Virus record (IMG/VR): IMGVR_UViG_3300030099_001311
Location: 1 to 21,130 of that record
Origin: a virus
DNA length: 21,130 bases
Direction: 5' to 3' (one strand)
Positions 8,263 through 20,310 of this stretch are shown here, one piece after another (position 1 is the stretch's first letter; the number at the start of each line of letters is the position of its first letter). The notes under the pieces were generated by a model. That model made no database searches. It had not been told where the DNA came from and saw only the letters and a program-made list of their open reading frames with translations. A program made the translations under genes and the position numbers.

Positions 8263-9045
8263 ATGGTCGCTAAAAAAAATACAGTTAAAGCAATGGGGTT
8301 AAGTATTGAATCATTACAACAGACAGAGGTGTCTTTTAAAATCATAGGCACTGCACCTTTAATTTACAATTCAATGTCTTTGAAAGCACAAAAGACTTTG
8401 CTTATGGGTGCAGCGAAGAAGACTGCCGCTGAGAAAAAAGAAATCAAACATAATCCTGAAGAGGAGTTTGTAGATAGTTGTTATATCAATGGCACTAATG
8501 GTTCTTATCTTAGTTTCCCGTCCACAGGTATTAAGAGAGGCATGGCAACTGCGGCTCTTGAAACTGCTGGTGTAACAAAAGCTAGTATCAATCGTGGTAT
8601 CTATGTTGTGGGTGAACATATTAATGTGTGGGGTAAACCCTATATGAATATGTCTGTTGTTCGTTCTTCTGATATAAACAGAACACCTGATATTCGCACC
8701 CGTGCTAAATTACCTAATTGGTGTACTGAAGTTACAGTTCGTTATATTAACCCTACATTTAGTCAGCTTGACATTACGGCATTGCTCGTTAATGCAGGCA
8801 CGTTATGTGGCTTGGGTGATTGGCGAATTGAAAAGGGTGGTCCGATGGGAGGATATAGGATCGTCCAAACAAAAGATGATCAAAAGATTTTTGATCATCT
8901 AGTCAAAGAAGAAGGTGCTACTTGTCAAAAACTTGCTTTAGAAAATCCTGAGATTGAGGCACATGATAATATGAGCCACGAACTCTATGAAGCAATTACG
9001 CAAGAGAGGCTTAAAAGAGCGGCTATTATTAAGGAGGTTGCTTAA
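8263..9045 (+). CDS. Conserved phage recombination-module protein, unknown function (260 aa)
   Basis: It starts at ATG 8263 behind AAAGGAGG. Features in order are an N-terminal strand with GTAPLIYNSMS (about residues 29-39) and a basic Ala/Lys helix with KTAAEKKE. Then come EEEFVDSCY, FPSTGIKRGMATAAL (about 86-100), a middle part with SVVRSSDINRTPDIRTRAKLP, and a strongly conserved-looking end with NPTFSQLDITALLVNAG and GLGDWRIEKGGPMGGYRI (about 194-211). I recall similar proteins from phage recombination cassettes, always without an assigned role. The small-residue/KRG helix after a strand and the late glycine-rich loop recall the architecture of RAMP (Cas7-like) proteins, but this is only a pattern impression. 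It is coupled by TAATG overlap to the next gene. No nuclease or ATPase motif is visible. Confidence 0.8.
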   Translation: MVAKKNTVKAMGLSIESLQQTEVSFKIIGTAPLIYNSMSLKAQKTLLMGAAKKTAAEKKEIKHNPEEEFVDSCYINGTNGSYLSFPSTGIKRGMATAALETAGVTKASINRGIYVVGEHINVWGKPYMNMSVVRSSDINRTPDIRTRAKLPNWCTEVTVRYINPTFSQLDITALLVNAGTLCGLGDWRIEKGGPMGGYRIVQTKDDQKIFDHLVKEEGATCQKLALENPEIEAHDNMSHELYEAITQERLKRAAIIKEVA

Positions 9046-9581
9046 TGGCTAAACCTAAAAGATTTGGCAAAAGAGATCGTCAAGCAATTGTTGATGATTA
9101 TCTAAATAAAACAGGCAGGAACACTATTGTTCCTGCCGAGTTTCACGAATGGTTGTCTACACAGCCTGACCACCCAATGTATAAAGTATTAGAGTGGGAT
9201 GATGAAAAAGCTGCGATTAAATATAGAATACAGCAAATTCGTCAGTTTTTCTCAGGTTGTAGGATAACCATTAAATATAAAGATGTAACACCTGATCCTG
9301 TTGATGTAACAGATAGTATTGGTATTAGTGAACCAAAGGTGTTAAAGTTTCCTACTTACATCTCTCCTATAGATGGTAGAGCACAGGGTGGTGGTTATCA
9401 AAAGTTTGACTTGGATAACCCTGATACTGTTGCTGAGTTATGTCGTCAAGCCTGTAGAGAATTAAGATCTTGGACTAAAAGATATAAAGGTATCTGTGCT
9501 GTAAAAGAAGTAGATATAGAGAACCTTGAAGAAGTAGCAAATTCTTTGGAAGAACATAGTGTAAAGAGTGAGGCTATATAA
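9045..9581 (+). CDS. Conserved phage protein of unknown function (178 aa), last gene of the P1 operon
   Basis: ATG 9045 overlaps the upstream stop (TAATG) with AAGGAGG just before, so translation is coupled to the preceding gene. The N-terminus is basic (MAKPKRFGKRDRQAIVDDYL) and followed by GRNTIVPAEFHEWLSTQPDH. That is a helix-loop pattern typical of a small DNA-associated domain, with WLSTQPDHPMY as its most distinctive part. A middle segment (FFSGCRITIKYKDV) is beta-like, and the C-terminal half is acidic, ending with a helix-rich SLEEHSVKSEAI. No metal or catalytic site is visible. The stop codon lies in the loop of the downstream terminator hairpin, so the gene and the transcript end together. 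I recall this protein following the preceding one in other phages; the function is unknown. Confidence 0.8.
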   Translation: MAKPKRFGKRDRQAIVDDYLNKTGRNTIVPAEFHEWLSTQPDHPMYKVLEWDDEKAAIKYRIQQIRQFFSGCRITIKYKDVTPDPVDVTDSIGISEPKVLKFPTYISPIDGRAQGGGYQKFDLDNPDTVAELCRQACRELRSWTKRYKGICAVKEVDIENLEEVANSLEEHSVKSEAI

Positions 9582-9595
9582 GCCTCACTTTTTTT
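9567..9595 (+). terminator. Intrinsic terminator of the P1 operon
   Basis: A perfect 9-bp stem AGTGAGGCT (9567-9575) / AGCCTCACT (9581-9589) with loop ATATA, followed by a seven-T run (9589-9595). The upstream gene's stop codon TAA (9579-9581) sits in the loop. The pentamer array starts immediately after the T run. Confidence 0.92.
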
Positions 9596-10272
9596 AAGGC
9601 AGTTAACAAACGGCAAGTAGGGGTGAGGAACGCTCCGTTAGGTTGCGTTATGTTTTGTTCAGGCTGTTGTGTCGTGTTGAGGAGGGGTCAGATCAGTTAG
9701 GATATGTTGCGTTACGTTATGGCAGTTCAGCAGGGGTTGGGTTTTCTTGGGTCAGTTAGGATCAGTTGAGGCAGTTTGGGTGAATTAAGGTAAGCAAATG
9801 TAGTCTGAGGTTTGGTTGGCTAAGTTCTGTTGAGGCAGTTGAGTTATGGTGCTGCTCGTTTGGTTCTGTTAAGGCAGTTGAGTTTTGTTAGTCTGTGGAT
9901 GGGAGGGGTGCGTTGTGGTGCGATCCGTTTAGGCAGTTATTGTTGGGTGAGGTGAGTTACATTCAGGTCAGTTGCGTTGCGTTGTGGCAGTTGGGGTGAG
10001 GTGCGATATTCTATGTAGGGGTGCGATAAGTTCAGGCAGTTGAGTTGTGCTATCTTGGGGAGAGGTGCTGTTAGTTATGTTTAGGCTGTTTAGATGCGTT
10101 ACGTTCAGGAGAGGTGCGTTCAGGCGAGGTTTGTTGTATTGTGTTACGGCTGTTGAGGCTACCTACGTTTTTGTGTGTTTCTGTTTGCTTGGGTGAGGTG
10201 TGCTTGGTTAAGGCAGTTGCGTTCAGTTTAAGTGGGCTGTTCTTAGGTGTGTTGAGTTCGGTTAAGGCAGTT
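9596..10272 (+). repeat. Non-coding phased pentamer array, G/T-rich, punctuated by NNGG-CWGTT
   Basis: This 677-base stretch fills the whole gap between a terminator and the helicase gene and has no credible open reading frame. Counting from each CWGTT anchor, the sequence divides into pentamers without losing phase. Of about 124 pentamers, 108 end in T and 55 end in GTT (for example GCGTT, ACGTT, GAGTT, GAGGT, GGGGT). Thirteen anchors (CAGTT or CTGTT starting at 9600, 9664, 9723, 9772, 9836, 9875, 9934, 9988, 10037, 10086, 10150, 10214, 10268) are each preceded by a tetramer ending in GG. The twelve intervals are 64, 59, 49, 64, 39, 59, 54, 49, 49, 64, 64 and 54, all 5n+4. Both ends carry AAGGCAGTT. 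The + strand is poor in A and C. Function unknown; replication origin, recombination site, or a structured or protein-bound RNA are possibilities. Confidence 0.93.
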
Positions 10273-10301: not shown

Positions 10302-11981
10302 ATGCTTTTAAGACCATATCAAGAGATTGCTGTTAATTCGGCTATAGATGCTTTGGATAAGCATGGCAATACTGTTGTTGTTGCACCAACGGGTGCAGGC
10401 AAAACAATAATGCTTTCTGCTTTGATAGGTAAACGCTGCGAAACCCGAAGAAATGTTCTGGTTCTGCAGCACAGAGATGAGCTGGTTAATCAAAATATGG
10501 ATAAGTTTAAACGCATAAACCCAAATATATTGACCAGCATTGTTAATGCTGAAGAGAAAGATTGGAACGGAGATGCTGTATTTTCTATGGTGCAGACATT
10601 ATCCAGACCAAACAATTTAGATAACATGAAAGCTATGGACATGGTAGTCGTTGATGAAAGCCACCATGTGGTAGCTGATACTTACACTCGGATAATTGAT
10701 CATGCTAAACAAATTAATGACAAAGTTGAAATCGTTGGTTTCACTGCTACGCCTAATCGTGGGGATAAGAAGGGTTTGCGTTCAGTCTTTAGCAACTGCA
10801 GCCACCAAATCGAAATATCAACACTCATTCGTGAAGGTTTTCTTGTCACCCCAAGAACCTACGTCATTGACGTGGGTGTACGTTCTGAACTTGAGAATGT
10901 TCGGAAAACAGTGGTTGATTTTGATATGGATCAAGTAGCTCGTATTATGAACAAGCGAGCTATCAATCAAAGGGTTGTAAGCGAATGGTTAGATAAAGCA
11001 CATGATAGAAAGACTGTGGTGTTCTGTTCGACAGTGGCACACGCAGAAGATTTATGCGAGGAGTTTGTAGAAGAAGGTGTTAATGCAAAGATAGTTACAG
11101 GGAGCACAGACAAAGCCGAGAGACGGGAGATTTTGGAGGATTTGTCAAGTGGGGATACACAGGTTGTAGTCAACGTATCTGTACTAACAGAGGGGTTTGA
11201 CTCACCTCCTGTATCCTGTATTGTTCTAACACGACCTTGCTCTTACAAATCAACAATGGTTCAGATGATAGGTCGTGGATTACGAACCATTGATCCAGAT
11301 GAGTATCCAGATATTATCAAGACAGATTGTGTTGTACTTGACTTTGGTACATCTGTGTTAACACATGGATCACTCGAAGAAGAAGTTAATCTTGAGGGTT
11401 CACAATCAGAGTTAAAAGGTGACGCACCAGAAAAGGTTTGTCCAGAATGTAACTCTGTTGTTCCTTTAAGTGTCAGAGAGTGTCCTATGTGTGGTCACGA
11501 GTTTGGCAAAGATGATAACTCACAGCTAGAAGAGTTCTCCATGACAGAGGTAGATCTATTAGACAGATCACCTTTCCGTTGGATAGATATATTTGGTACA
11601 GGTAAATGTGTCGCAGCGACAGGGTTCAATGGCTTTGCAATGGTTATAGATTTAGATGATTTATCCTGTGGTCTTGTAAAGCGTTCTGGTGGCAGGATAA
11701 GAATGATTAGTATAGGAACACGCAAGCAGGCTATCGCATCTGCTGATGACTTTCTCAGAGAGATTGAAGATAGTGATAGTGCAAAGAAAGGTCGTAGATG
11801 GCTAAATGAACGTATTAGTGACAGACAGAGAGATATGTTAAGCCGTAATGGTGTAATGGTATCAGGGTTTGACTTCTCTTGGACAAAATACAAAGCGGCG
11901 TGTTATTTGAATTATTTGTGGAATAAGGGTAGAGTAGACGATATGATTAGTAATGTGAGGGAGAAACATGAAAAAAGATAA
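10302..11981 (+). CDS. SF2 DEAD/DEAH-box-type DNA helicase with C-terminal zinc ribbon (559 aa)
   Basis: This ATP-dependent helicase has the full superfamily 2 signature: the Q-like RPYQ at residues 4-7, Walker A APTGAGKT (28-35), and motif II DESH (118-121). FTATP (motif III) lies near residue 150, GFDSPP follows in the second RecA domain, and motif VI QMIGRGLR is at 321-328. After the helicase core comes a Cys4 zinc ribbon (C380-x2-C383 ... C394-x2-C397) and a further 160-residue C-terminal domain of unknown role (WIDIFGTGKC region). It resembles phage and bacterial SSL2/UvsW-type helicases that remodel forks and recombination intermediates. It opens a new block after the pentamer array, with its own leader. 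Its last 14 bases overlap the DUF3310 gene. A degenerate CCGAA-N4-TG-TTC palindrome lies inside at 10444-10461. Confidence 0.92.
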   Translation: MLLRPYQEIAVNSAIDALDKHGNTVVVAPTGAGKTIMLSALIGKRCETRRNVLVLQHRDELVNQNMDKFKRINPNILTSIVNAEEKDWNGDAVFSMVQTLSRPNNLDNMKAMDMVVVDESHHVVADTYTRIIDHAKQINDKVEIVGFTATPNRGDKKGLRSVFSNCSHQIEISTLIREGFLVTPRTYVIDVGVRSELENVRKTVVDFDMDQVARIMNKRAINQRVVSEWLDKAHDRKTVVFCSTVAHAEDLCEEFVEEGVNAKIVTGSTDKAERREILEDLSSGDTQVVVNVSVLTEGFDSPPVSCIVLTRPCSYKSTMVQMIGRGLRTIDPDEYPDIIKTDCVVLDFGTSVLTHGSLEEEVNLEGSQSELKGDAPEKVCPECNSVVPLSVRECPMCGHEFGKDDNSQLEEFSMTEVDLLDRSPFRWIDIFGTGKCVAATGFNGFAMVIDLDDLSCGLVKRSGGRIRMISIGTRKQAIASADDFLREIEDSDSAKKGRRWLNERISDRQRDMLSRNGVMVSGFDFSWTKYKAACYLNYLWNKGRVDDMISNVREKHEKR

Positions 11982-17282: not shown

Positions 17283-17720
17283 ATGGCTAGAGAATTAGTA
17301 AAACGTATTGATATGGCTTTGCATATACAGGAGTTATGTGCAAGGCATGACATTCGGGTTCGGTATCAATCATTAAGCGAGAAAGTGCCACGATATTATG
17401 CTGACCAAAACAACAGGACAATCTGTATTCGTCCAACAAAGAATACAGGATATTATGTATCAGCACTCCATGAACTCGGACATTTACTCGGTGTTAATCA
17501 AAGTGTTGAAAACGATACATTGGAAAGGGAGATCGGTGCATGGAAATATGCTATGGTCAATGCCATTGTATGGACAGATACAGCGACTAGGGTTATGAAA
17601 AATGCTCTCATGTCCTATGGTGTAACAGAGGATCAATGGGTCGGTGTCTGGAATGATTGTATGAATTATTACAATGCAATAAAAGAACAGAGCAAACCTT
17701 TCACAAAGGAAATTGCCTAA
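17283..17720 (+). CDS. HExxH metallopeptidase-like protein (145 aa)
   Basis: The motif ALHELGHLLG holds H63-E64-x2-H67, the zinc-binding HExxH signature. A likely third ligand is E83 in EREIGAWKYA, giving the gluzincin-like arrangement seen in ImmA/IrrE-type peptidases. The N-terminal 55 residues (ELCARHDIRVRYQS, then RTICIRP) look like the small beta domain that precedes the active-site helix in that group. In mobile elements ImmA-type proteases cut repressors; in phages their targets are mostly unknown. It starts at ATG 17283 behind AAAGGGGG. The stop overlaps the next start (TAATG), coupling it to an HTH-like protein. A repressor-cleaving role is inference; no classical repressor gene was seen here. 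Confidence 0.75.
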   Translation: MARELVKRIDMALHIQELCARHDIRVRYQSLSEKVPRYYADQNNRTICIRPTKNTGYYVSALHELGHLLGVNQSVENDTLEREIGAWKYAMVNAIVWTDTATRVMKNALMSYGVTEDQWVGVWNDCMNYYNAIKEQSKPFTKEIA

Positions 17721-17929
17721 TGACTAAATTCCATGAATCTTTTATCTTTGCTGTGCAAAAGTATTGGGAAGATAACAAGGGCAAGTTCAAGCATATCGAG
17801 AAGTCGGGGGTTCACATGGACAGAACAACCAAGAAAAAGTTCGGGTTGCAGGACTTGGCAGATCATTTTAACATAACCGAATCACAGGCTAGACGTATAG
17901 TCTATGTGAAAAATAAGATGGTCAAATGA
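17720..17929 (+). CDS. Small HTH-like protein (69 aa)
   Basis: The preferred start is ATG 17720, overlapping the upstream stop (TAATG) with AAAGGAAA in front; an in-frame ATG at 17657 lies well inside the metallopeptidase gene. The protein begins MTKFHESFIFAVQKYWEDN, has a basic middle (KFKHIEKSG, RTTKKKF) and ends with LQDLADHFNITESQARRIVY. That end reads as a helix-turn-helix: LQDLADHF, turn NITE, then SQARRIVY as recognition helix. A DNA-binding regulator is likely. It overlaps the next gene by 4 bases and is coupled to a putative protease, an arrangement that could form a regulatory pair. Confidence 0.72.
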   Translation: MTKFHESFIFAVQKYWEDNKGKFKHIEKSGVHMDRTTKKKFGLQDLADHFNITESQARRIVYVKNKMVK

Positions 17930-19927: not shown

Positions 19928-20073
19928 AATTAGATATTGCTATTGAAATAATCAGAACTGAACTTGAATCTGCCTGTGATGAATTTTATGGTGAGGATTG
20001 CAAAGAGAATGAAGAAAGCAAAAAAGAAATTAATGATGCTTTCAAAACCATACTTGATAACTTACCAAAATAA
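19924..20073 (+). CDS. Small acidic unknown protein (49 aa)
   Basis: ATG 19924 overlaps the upstream stop (ATGA), with AAAGGGGG before it, and 50 codons end at TAA 20071-20073. The protein is acidic and helical (MKLDIAIEIIRTELESACDE, CKENEESKKEIND, FKTILDNLPK) with two cysteines. It is the last gene before the repeat-rich region upstream of the terminase. The first ACTTACC copy of that region (20060-20066) lies in its final codons. Function unknown. Confidence 0.7.
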   Translation: MKLDIAIEIIRTELESACDEFYGEDCKENEESKKEINDAFKTILDNLPK

Positions 20074-20284
20074 CTAATTTACTTACCAAGTTACCAACTT
20101 ACTTGGTAAGTAAAATTGTAGGTAAGTTAATATTTGTTATGTAGCCTACGTTACAGAGATTTACTTACATAGGTTACGAGTTAAGTCGGTAACTACGTTT
20201 CGGACTGTAAGTTATTGATTTTATTGCAACTTACCAACTTACCACTACTTCCCCCCTATAAGGGGGTATAGGGTGGTGGTAAGT
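20060..20284. repeat. Iteron-like cluster of ACTTACC / GGTAAGT with 14-bp inverted repeat
   Basis: ACTTACC occurs at 20060, 20081, 20229 and 20237, and its complement GGTAAGT at 20105, 20121 and 20278: seven copies in 225 bases. The central pair forms a perfect 14-bp inverted repeat, TTTACTTACCAAGT (20078-20091) / ACTTGGTAAGTAAA (20101-20114), with a 9-nt loop. The 300-base stretch 20074-20372 holds no gene. It precedes the small terminase gene, the usual place for a packaging site, and could equally be an operator cluster. Confidence 0.85.
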
Positions 20285-20296
20285 AACCCACCACCC
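20252..20296. other. Two adjacent C/G-rich hairpins in the pre-terminase region
   Basis: CCCCC (20252-20256) / GGGGG (20262-20266) with loop TATAA, then GGGTGGTGG (20271-20279) / CCACCACCC (20288-20296) with an 8-nt loop. No T run follows on either strand, so these are not ordinary intrinsic terminators. They sit immediately before promoter P4. Confidence 0.7.
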
Positions 20297-20310
20297 CCAC
20301 CCCAATACAC

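Follow-up and report, generated by a model that had tools for sequence, protein, structure and literature searches.

A phase-punctuated, tail-less array in a viral genome that is very probably a VIPR guide array, with host defence genes and rival phages as proposed targets

We propose that the pentamer array at positions 9596 to 10272 of a viral sequence of 21,130 nucleotides (IMG/VR record IMGVR_UViG_3300030099_001311; the whole stretch analysed is referred to as the window) is a tail-less guide array of the VIPR type, and that during infection it most likely serves to repress host defence genes, and rival phages as well, by way of RNA guides, a reading that we hold with high confidence. VIPR, for Viral Interference Programmable Repeat, comprises phage-encoded RAMP proteins and guide RNAs (bioRxiv 2026.04.26.720920, PMC13142463). 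The guide RNA has 9–16 pentamers alternating GGY and NN, and NN pairs with double-stranded DNA while skipping one target base, mostly the wobble position of a codon (PMC13142463). The window shares with that system a RAMP protein homologous to the Vipr of SUSP1, a second gene next to it (here a candidate vap), guides made of pentamers in which two bases are free, and the one-base skip at the wobble position. What appears to be new is an array that is phase-punctuated and devoid of tails, together with the proposal that the guides of a phage would silence restriction and defence genes of its host. The features on which the argument is built are as follows.

8263..9045, plus strand: vipr homologue, RAMP protein of 260 aa (phrog_4652, function listed as unknown); AF2 model, PDB fold matches, and profile match to the SUSP1 Vipr ORF
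9045..9581, plus strand: candidate vipr-accessory protein (vap), 178 aa (phrog_15946, function listed as unknown); adjoins vipr in the loci examined
9566..9595, plus strand: strong hairpin and T-run, terminator-like, overlapping the vap gene end just 5' of the array; fold z -5.1
9596..10272, plus strand: proposed array of guides (vrRNA) in 12 blocks built of NNGKY pentamers; a 4-nt unit closes each block, and GGC(A/T)GTT stands between them
9600..9663, plus strand: guide 1, 12 NN; no target found
9664..9722, plus strand: guide 2, 11 NN; VVDG[HQ][HQ][RS][IM]AT, a GmrSD/DUF262/ParB-like motif
9723..9771, plus strand: guide 3, 9 NN; HGCFWH.H[DE], Vsr endonuclease
9772..9835, plus strand: guide 4, 12 NN
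9836..9874, plus strand: guide 5, 7 NN
9875..9933, plus strand: guide 6, 11 NN; DLSVCGAVAPY, DruA of Druantia
9934..9987, plus strand: guide 7, 10 NN; [IM][CW]DETHHAAV, DEAH-like; no target found
9988..10036, plus strand: guide 8, 9 NN; the block shared most widely; no coherent target
10037..10085, plus strand: guide 9, 9 NN; DVIGEAY[IM]Y, HsdM of type I restriction-modification
10086..10149, plus strand: guide 10, 12 NN; no target in the 117 genomes searched
10150..10213, plus strand: guide 11, 12 NN
10214..10267, plus strand: guide 12, 10 NN; holds the off-class motif copy at 10235
10302..11981, plus strand: UvsW/ResIII-like helicase, directly 3' of the array

The array is regular at the level of both the pentamer and the block. 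Autocorrelation of the region 9596–10272 has maxima at 5, 10, 15, and 20, and the pattern NNGKY fits 71 of 112 inner pentamers, against a mean of 21 and a maximum of 30 for best-phase shuffles (1000 mononucleotide shuffles); the strict form NNGGY fits 27 of the 112. The anchor between blocks, GGC(A/T)GTT, occurs by motif count 14 times on the plus strand from 9598 to 10272, with no copy on the minus strand of that interval, and over the whole window and both strands there are 19 copies, compared with a shuffle mean of 4.0 and a maximum of 11 (100 shuffles). An earlier note on this DNA had counted 13 anchors, one fewer than the recount gives, and had held that every gap between them is of the form 5n+4. 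The twelve gaps that it listed are all 4 mod 5 on recount, but the rule does not extend to the fourteenth copy at 10235, which makes gaps of 23 and 31. That copy is formed by in-register pentamers inside the last block (10214–10267, 54 nt), so omitting it fits the block structure and twelve blocks stay. The note was also right that the same sequence, AAGGCAGTT, is present at both ends of the array. No second pentamer array was found elsewhere in the window, and Rfam gives no match.

Relatives were collected through the upstream 178-aa gene (23 loci), through its alignment (47 loci), and through the pentamer pattern (52 viral contigs). Among 203 distinct anchor-to-anchor blocks of ≤90 nt, 178 are 4 mod 5 in length, 19 are 0, 4 are 3, and the other classes hold 1 and 1, so that gaps outside the class, which the earlier note had named as refuting its rule if seen in related phages, do exist (25 of 203) but are rare. 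More distant relatives have GKCGGT as the anchor, and there too most gaps are 4 mod 5. Across 1786 pentamers, positions 1 and 2 are free, position 3 is G in 86%, position 4 is T in 52% and G in 34%, and position 5 is T in 88% and C in 7% (94% for the two together). The array lies directly 3' of the 178-aa gene in close relatives with enough sequence, and in other phages (L042, L043, L058, L090, and L091) it is flanked by the homologues of the 260-aa and 178-aa genes, which indicates that the array and the two genes travel together. When 18 arrays are compared, distinct block families are shared whole, with other families inserted or missing between them, and the family order F02, F03, F00, F01, F04 is kept in L002, L004, L005, L006, L010, L016, and L017. 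Whole blocks are gained or lost between relatives, and the block is indeed a unit besides the pentamer, as had been claimed. Of the two explanations offered with that claim, unequal exchange of interchangeable units is unsupported, the families being distinct and their order mostly kept, while a register bound by a protein is the best explanation; the 260-aa protein, which the note had named as one candidate, is the RAMP. What had not been seen is that the blocks would be guides whose sequence information resides in the two free bases of each pentamer, and that the dropped base would separate one guide from another. Two local variations were seen among the relatives: in L018–L023 the array end reads GGCTGTTCTGG(T/C)AAAAAACGGCTT...AAGAGCCGT, a hairpin without counterpart in the window, and in L005, L008, and L039 a gene resembling an MT-A70-type DNA methylase is inserted between the array and the helicase.

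These comparisons bear on whether the array is simply a neutral tandem repeat, produced by slippage and unequal exchange. Array length does differ between relatives by whole pentamers and whole blocks, as such a repeat would. However, Tandem Repeats Finder reports no array of pentamer period over the region, the units differ at two of five positions, the grammar recurs with its two neighbouring genes in distant phages, and the coding-frame matches given below also disfavour a neutral origin, which we regard as hardly credible. Five candidates were dropped, namely TRAP-like binding, a primase site array, iterons, an R-loop origin, and the neutral repeat.

The 260-aa protein is a homologue of the published Vipr and has a RAMP fold. 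It has no match in Pfam, and the AF2 model made with 33 homologues (pLDDT 81.3, pTM 0.77) finds CRISPR RAMPs (Csm3, Cas7, type VII, and gRAMP) in 28 of 28 matches at E≤1e-3 in a PDB fold search, the best at 3e-5, with VIA-align giving Z up to 9.2 over 135 residues. A segment G.GDWR.EKGGP.G, towards the C terminus of the RRM core, is kept in the 33 homologues and corresponds to the glycine-rich, here putatively RNA-binding, loop of VIPR proteins. The profile of these homologues finds the Vipr ORF of SUSP1 (28477–29079, minus strand) with an E of 1.2e-15, and GGY/NN tracts flank that ORF, in agreement with PMC13142463. In the SUSP1 record (L156, 27900–29300) Vipr is annotated as a hypothetical protein and the tracts carry no annotation; distant relatives of the 260-aa protein are present in 31 annotated records of Gordonia, Mycobacterium, and Pseudomonas phages and are hypothetical in the 20 matches listed. 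The 178-aa gene recurs beside vipr in the loci examined, and its product gave no Pfam match, no SUSP1 homologue, and no fold match.

We consider it very probable that the array is a VIPR guide array with a new layout, within a system that is known from one preprint. The consensus is strict GGY there and GKY here, and the guides here have 7–12 NN compared with 9–16 repeats (PMC13142463). Whereas each tract of VIPR type II (SUSP1-like) has an invariable structured 3' tail, the window has 12 guides head to tail, the blocks being tail-less with only GGC(A/T)GTT between them, that is, a 4-nt unit and CAGTT. The decoded targets also differ, being restriction and defence genes in the window. The layout may match one in S18 of the supplement of PMC13142463. 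The main text of that preprint does not mention anti-defence use, nor was anti-defence targeting by VIPR found in the literature searched. Class 1 CRISPR effectors (Csm3/Cas7) resemble the present system in protein fold and in being RNA-guided complexes of repeated RAMP subunits, but they use a contiguous guide and CRISPR repeats, whereas the guide here is discontinuous and the long identical repeats with unique spacers of the CRISPR type are absent from the array. Ten window proteins were run through Pfam on the question of cas1 and cas2, and a Cas4-domain exonuclease is present in the window. RNA anti-CRISPRs (Racrs; PMC10651486) are likewise small RNAs from phage against host immunity, but they mimic CRISPR repeats while the window guides would silence defence genes.

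To decode the guides into peptides, each NN was taken for codon positions 1 and 2, the skipped base being the wobble position. Guides 2 and 6 were scanned first, as their decoded peptides looked familiar. Vsr, HsdM, DUF4338, ParB, and polymerase motifs were first recognised in the decoded peptides. The motif identities are backed by Pfam or PADLOC for L098, L100, L108, L119, and L120, and apart from L096 and L097, treated below, the remaining matches were identified from translation only; PADLOC calls on the target proteins supplied are MTase_I, Vsr, DruA, and HEC-06/SspE-like. Eight of the twelve guides were searched, and coherent in-frame targets were obtained for four (guides 2, 3, 6, and 9).

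Guide 3 provides a test of the one-base skip. With one mismatch it has nine matches in nine of 172 genomes, all of them in-frame HGCFWH.H motifs of Vsr-like proteins (one being QGCFWH.H), while in the same 172 genomes the reversed pattern, and likewise skips of 0 or 2, gave no match. The one target run through Pfam is Vsr (5e-29) and adjoins a C5 methylase. For guide 6, a search of 257 Gb of species genomes gave three matches, in Parvularcula oceani, a Pelagibacteraceae single-cell genome, and an Acidisphaera MAG, all three in frame and in one protein family with DL[SN]VCGAVAPYN, one at 22 of 22 bases and two at 21 of 22. About four chance matches would be expected for this pattern in 257 Gb by our estimate, so the evidence lies in their frame and identity and not in their number; the Pelagibacteraceae target is DruA (Pfam 4e-25; PADLOC 1e-121). 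Guide 9 has two exact matches, both HsdM beside HsdS-like genes. With ≤2 mismatches there are 19 matches in 17 genomes, of which HsdM accounts for two of two exact, none of one with one mismatch, and one of 16 with two mismatches, and among 398 genomes of the phylum there is a single one-mismatch match, HsdM by motif. Guide 2 has three exact matches in viral contigs (pattern VVDG[HQ][HQ]R.A), all in frame, as VVDGQHRIATL, VVDGQHRMATA, and VVDGQQRIATI; by Pfam, L098 is GmrSD_N with GmrSD_C, L096 is DUF6551, and L097 is weakly GmrSD-like, below the cut-off. Its full 22 bases with ≤2 mismatches have one match in 172 genomes from the class to which Parvularcula belongs, VVDGQQRITTI, again in frame. 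To judge by these motifs, at least four guides appear to spell bacterial anti-phage defence genes. The matches come from sampled genomes and contigs, none of which is known to be that of the true host, and this counts against the reading.

A reading as guides is also bounded by how homologous blocks diverge. In close pairs, NN changes are fewer than scaffold changes (8.5 vs 16 per position). Over all 72 homologous block pairs the figures are 4.6 vs 5.7%, a small difference that counts against the guide reading, and between homologous guides there is no strong synonymous bias, with 10 of 90 NN changes synonymous in the forward reading and 6 of 90 in the reverse.

The targets suggest a multiplexed phage counter-defence in which tail-less VIPR arrays, their guides separated by register breaks, silence a large number of defence genes of the host together (restriction, Vsr, Druantia, and GmrSD), and we think this slightly more probable than not. 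The same machine could instead be aimed at rival phages, prophages, and other mobile elements with restriction or defence genes of their own, since defence genes also ride on prophages and other mobile elements. In keeping with this, the reported VIPR targets are mainly phage, prophage, and satellite (PMC13142463), the matches of guide 2 sit in viral contigs, and the F07 guide of relatives falls in the phage DNA polymerase frame in three of four viral contigs matched, and outside that frame in the fourth. Against it, guide 6 has no match in viral contigs (searched with a longer version of the pattern) and three in bacterial genomes, and the vsr and hsdM matches whose neighbours were read are in bacterial genomes, beside methylase or specificity genes. 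We regard rivals in place of host defences as a possible aim rather than a probable one.

The array could also be a DNA element for a pentamer-binding protein, such as a replication origin, a partition site, or an R-loop, with no guide function. Its location inside a replication and recombination module (Sak4, helicase, and primase) and the strong GC skew of 0.54 are what such an element might have. However, the NN content fits protein-coding targets in frame, the block families are distinct and are gained or lost whole, and the neighbouring gene encodes a RAMP, and we consider a DNA element very improbable.

We put forward the following hypothetical mechanism for the array as a VIPR guide array, in which RNP formation, the 1-nt skip, and transcriptional silencing are carried over by analogy from other VIPRs, for which they have been shown (PMC13142463). 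The array would be transcribed into a G/U-rich RNA with little folding, possibly processed at the anchors, and Vipr, the 260-aa RAMP, would polymerise on the guide RNA, each subunit gripping the constant G-K-Y of a single pentamer and leaving its two free bases exposed. One block would be one guide. The 4-nt unit before CAGTT shifts the next tract out of phase, so that the Vipr filament would stop there, and this is the likely reason for the 5n+4 rule; the dropped base probably marks where one guide stops and another begins. In the three guide 6 matches the CA of the anchor pentamer mismatches the target codon that precedes the guide, and the anchor is therefore probably outside the guide. The RNP would bind double-stranded DNA matching NNxNNxNN, every third target base being skipped. 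The guides decoded so far correspond to coding-strand sequence of conserved protein motifs, their skipped base falling on the wobble position, and would be aimed at vsr, hsdM, druA, and GmrSD-type genes, and one guide of the relatives at phage DNA polymerase. As the window guides with targets all equal the coding strand, they cannot pair with mRNA, which fits DNA targeting.

The transcript itself is consistent with the proposed RNA in that the array folds less than 20 of 20 shuffles. Against the guide reading, no structured 3' tail was seen in the array and no sigma-70 promoter was found. The hairpin and T-run at 9566–9595 is absent from the list given by a consensus scan, and with so strong a hairpin just 5' of it, the array may be transcribed separately or rely on read-through.

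If the proposed mechanism is correct, programmable gene silencing would join the known means of phage counter-defence. As the guides would depend on just codon positions 1 and 2 within conserved motifs, synonymous changes would offer the host no escape. Protein motifs can be read out of the VIPR code directly from phage sequence, and the target list of any such array can be computed, which makes questions of phage counter-defence directly testable. In addition, phrog_4652 and phrog_15946, families without known function, are tied to an RNA-guided system, and the register break offers a simple model for setting guide ends without repeats or tails.

Among the eight guides searched, guides 1, 7, 8, and 10 gave no coherent target. 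Guide 1 has one chance-like match (240 genomes, 3 mismatches), guide 7 has none in one search and two chance-like matches in another, and guide 10 has none in 117 genomes from the taxonomic order that includes the L100 genome. Guide 8 has no exact match in viral contigs; with two mismatches it has 54 matches in 45 of 172 genomes, more than the reversed control, and the 12 that were translated have no common gene. Within the collected loci (0.79 Mb) the one-base skip gave slightly more matches than controls and no clear target, and the skip-3 control there is void because a skip of 3 finds the arrays themselves. Against the phage's own genome, the long guides match weakly, at most 17 of 24 bases. 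Guide 5 matches the window's DNA at 17709–17728 in 13 of 14 bases, spanning the end of one gene and the start of the next, and one of 300 permuted versions of the guide matches equally well; the match possibly reflects self-regulation, or chance over 12 guides. Apart from the array, the intergenic region 20040–20310, 5' of the terminase small subunit gene, contains many inverted and direct repeats resembling TTACCAACTTACC and is possibly a packaging or regulatory site.
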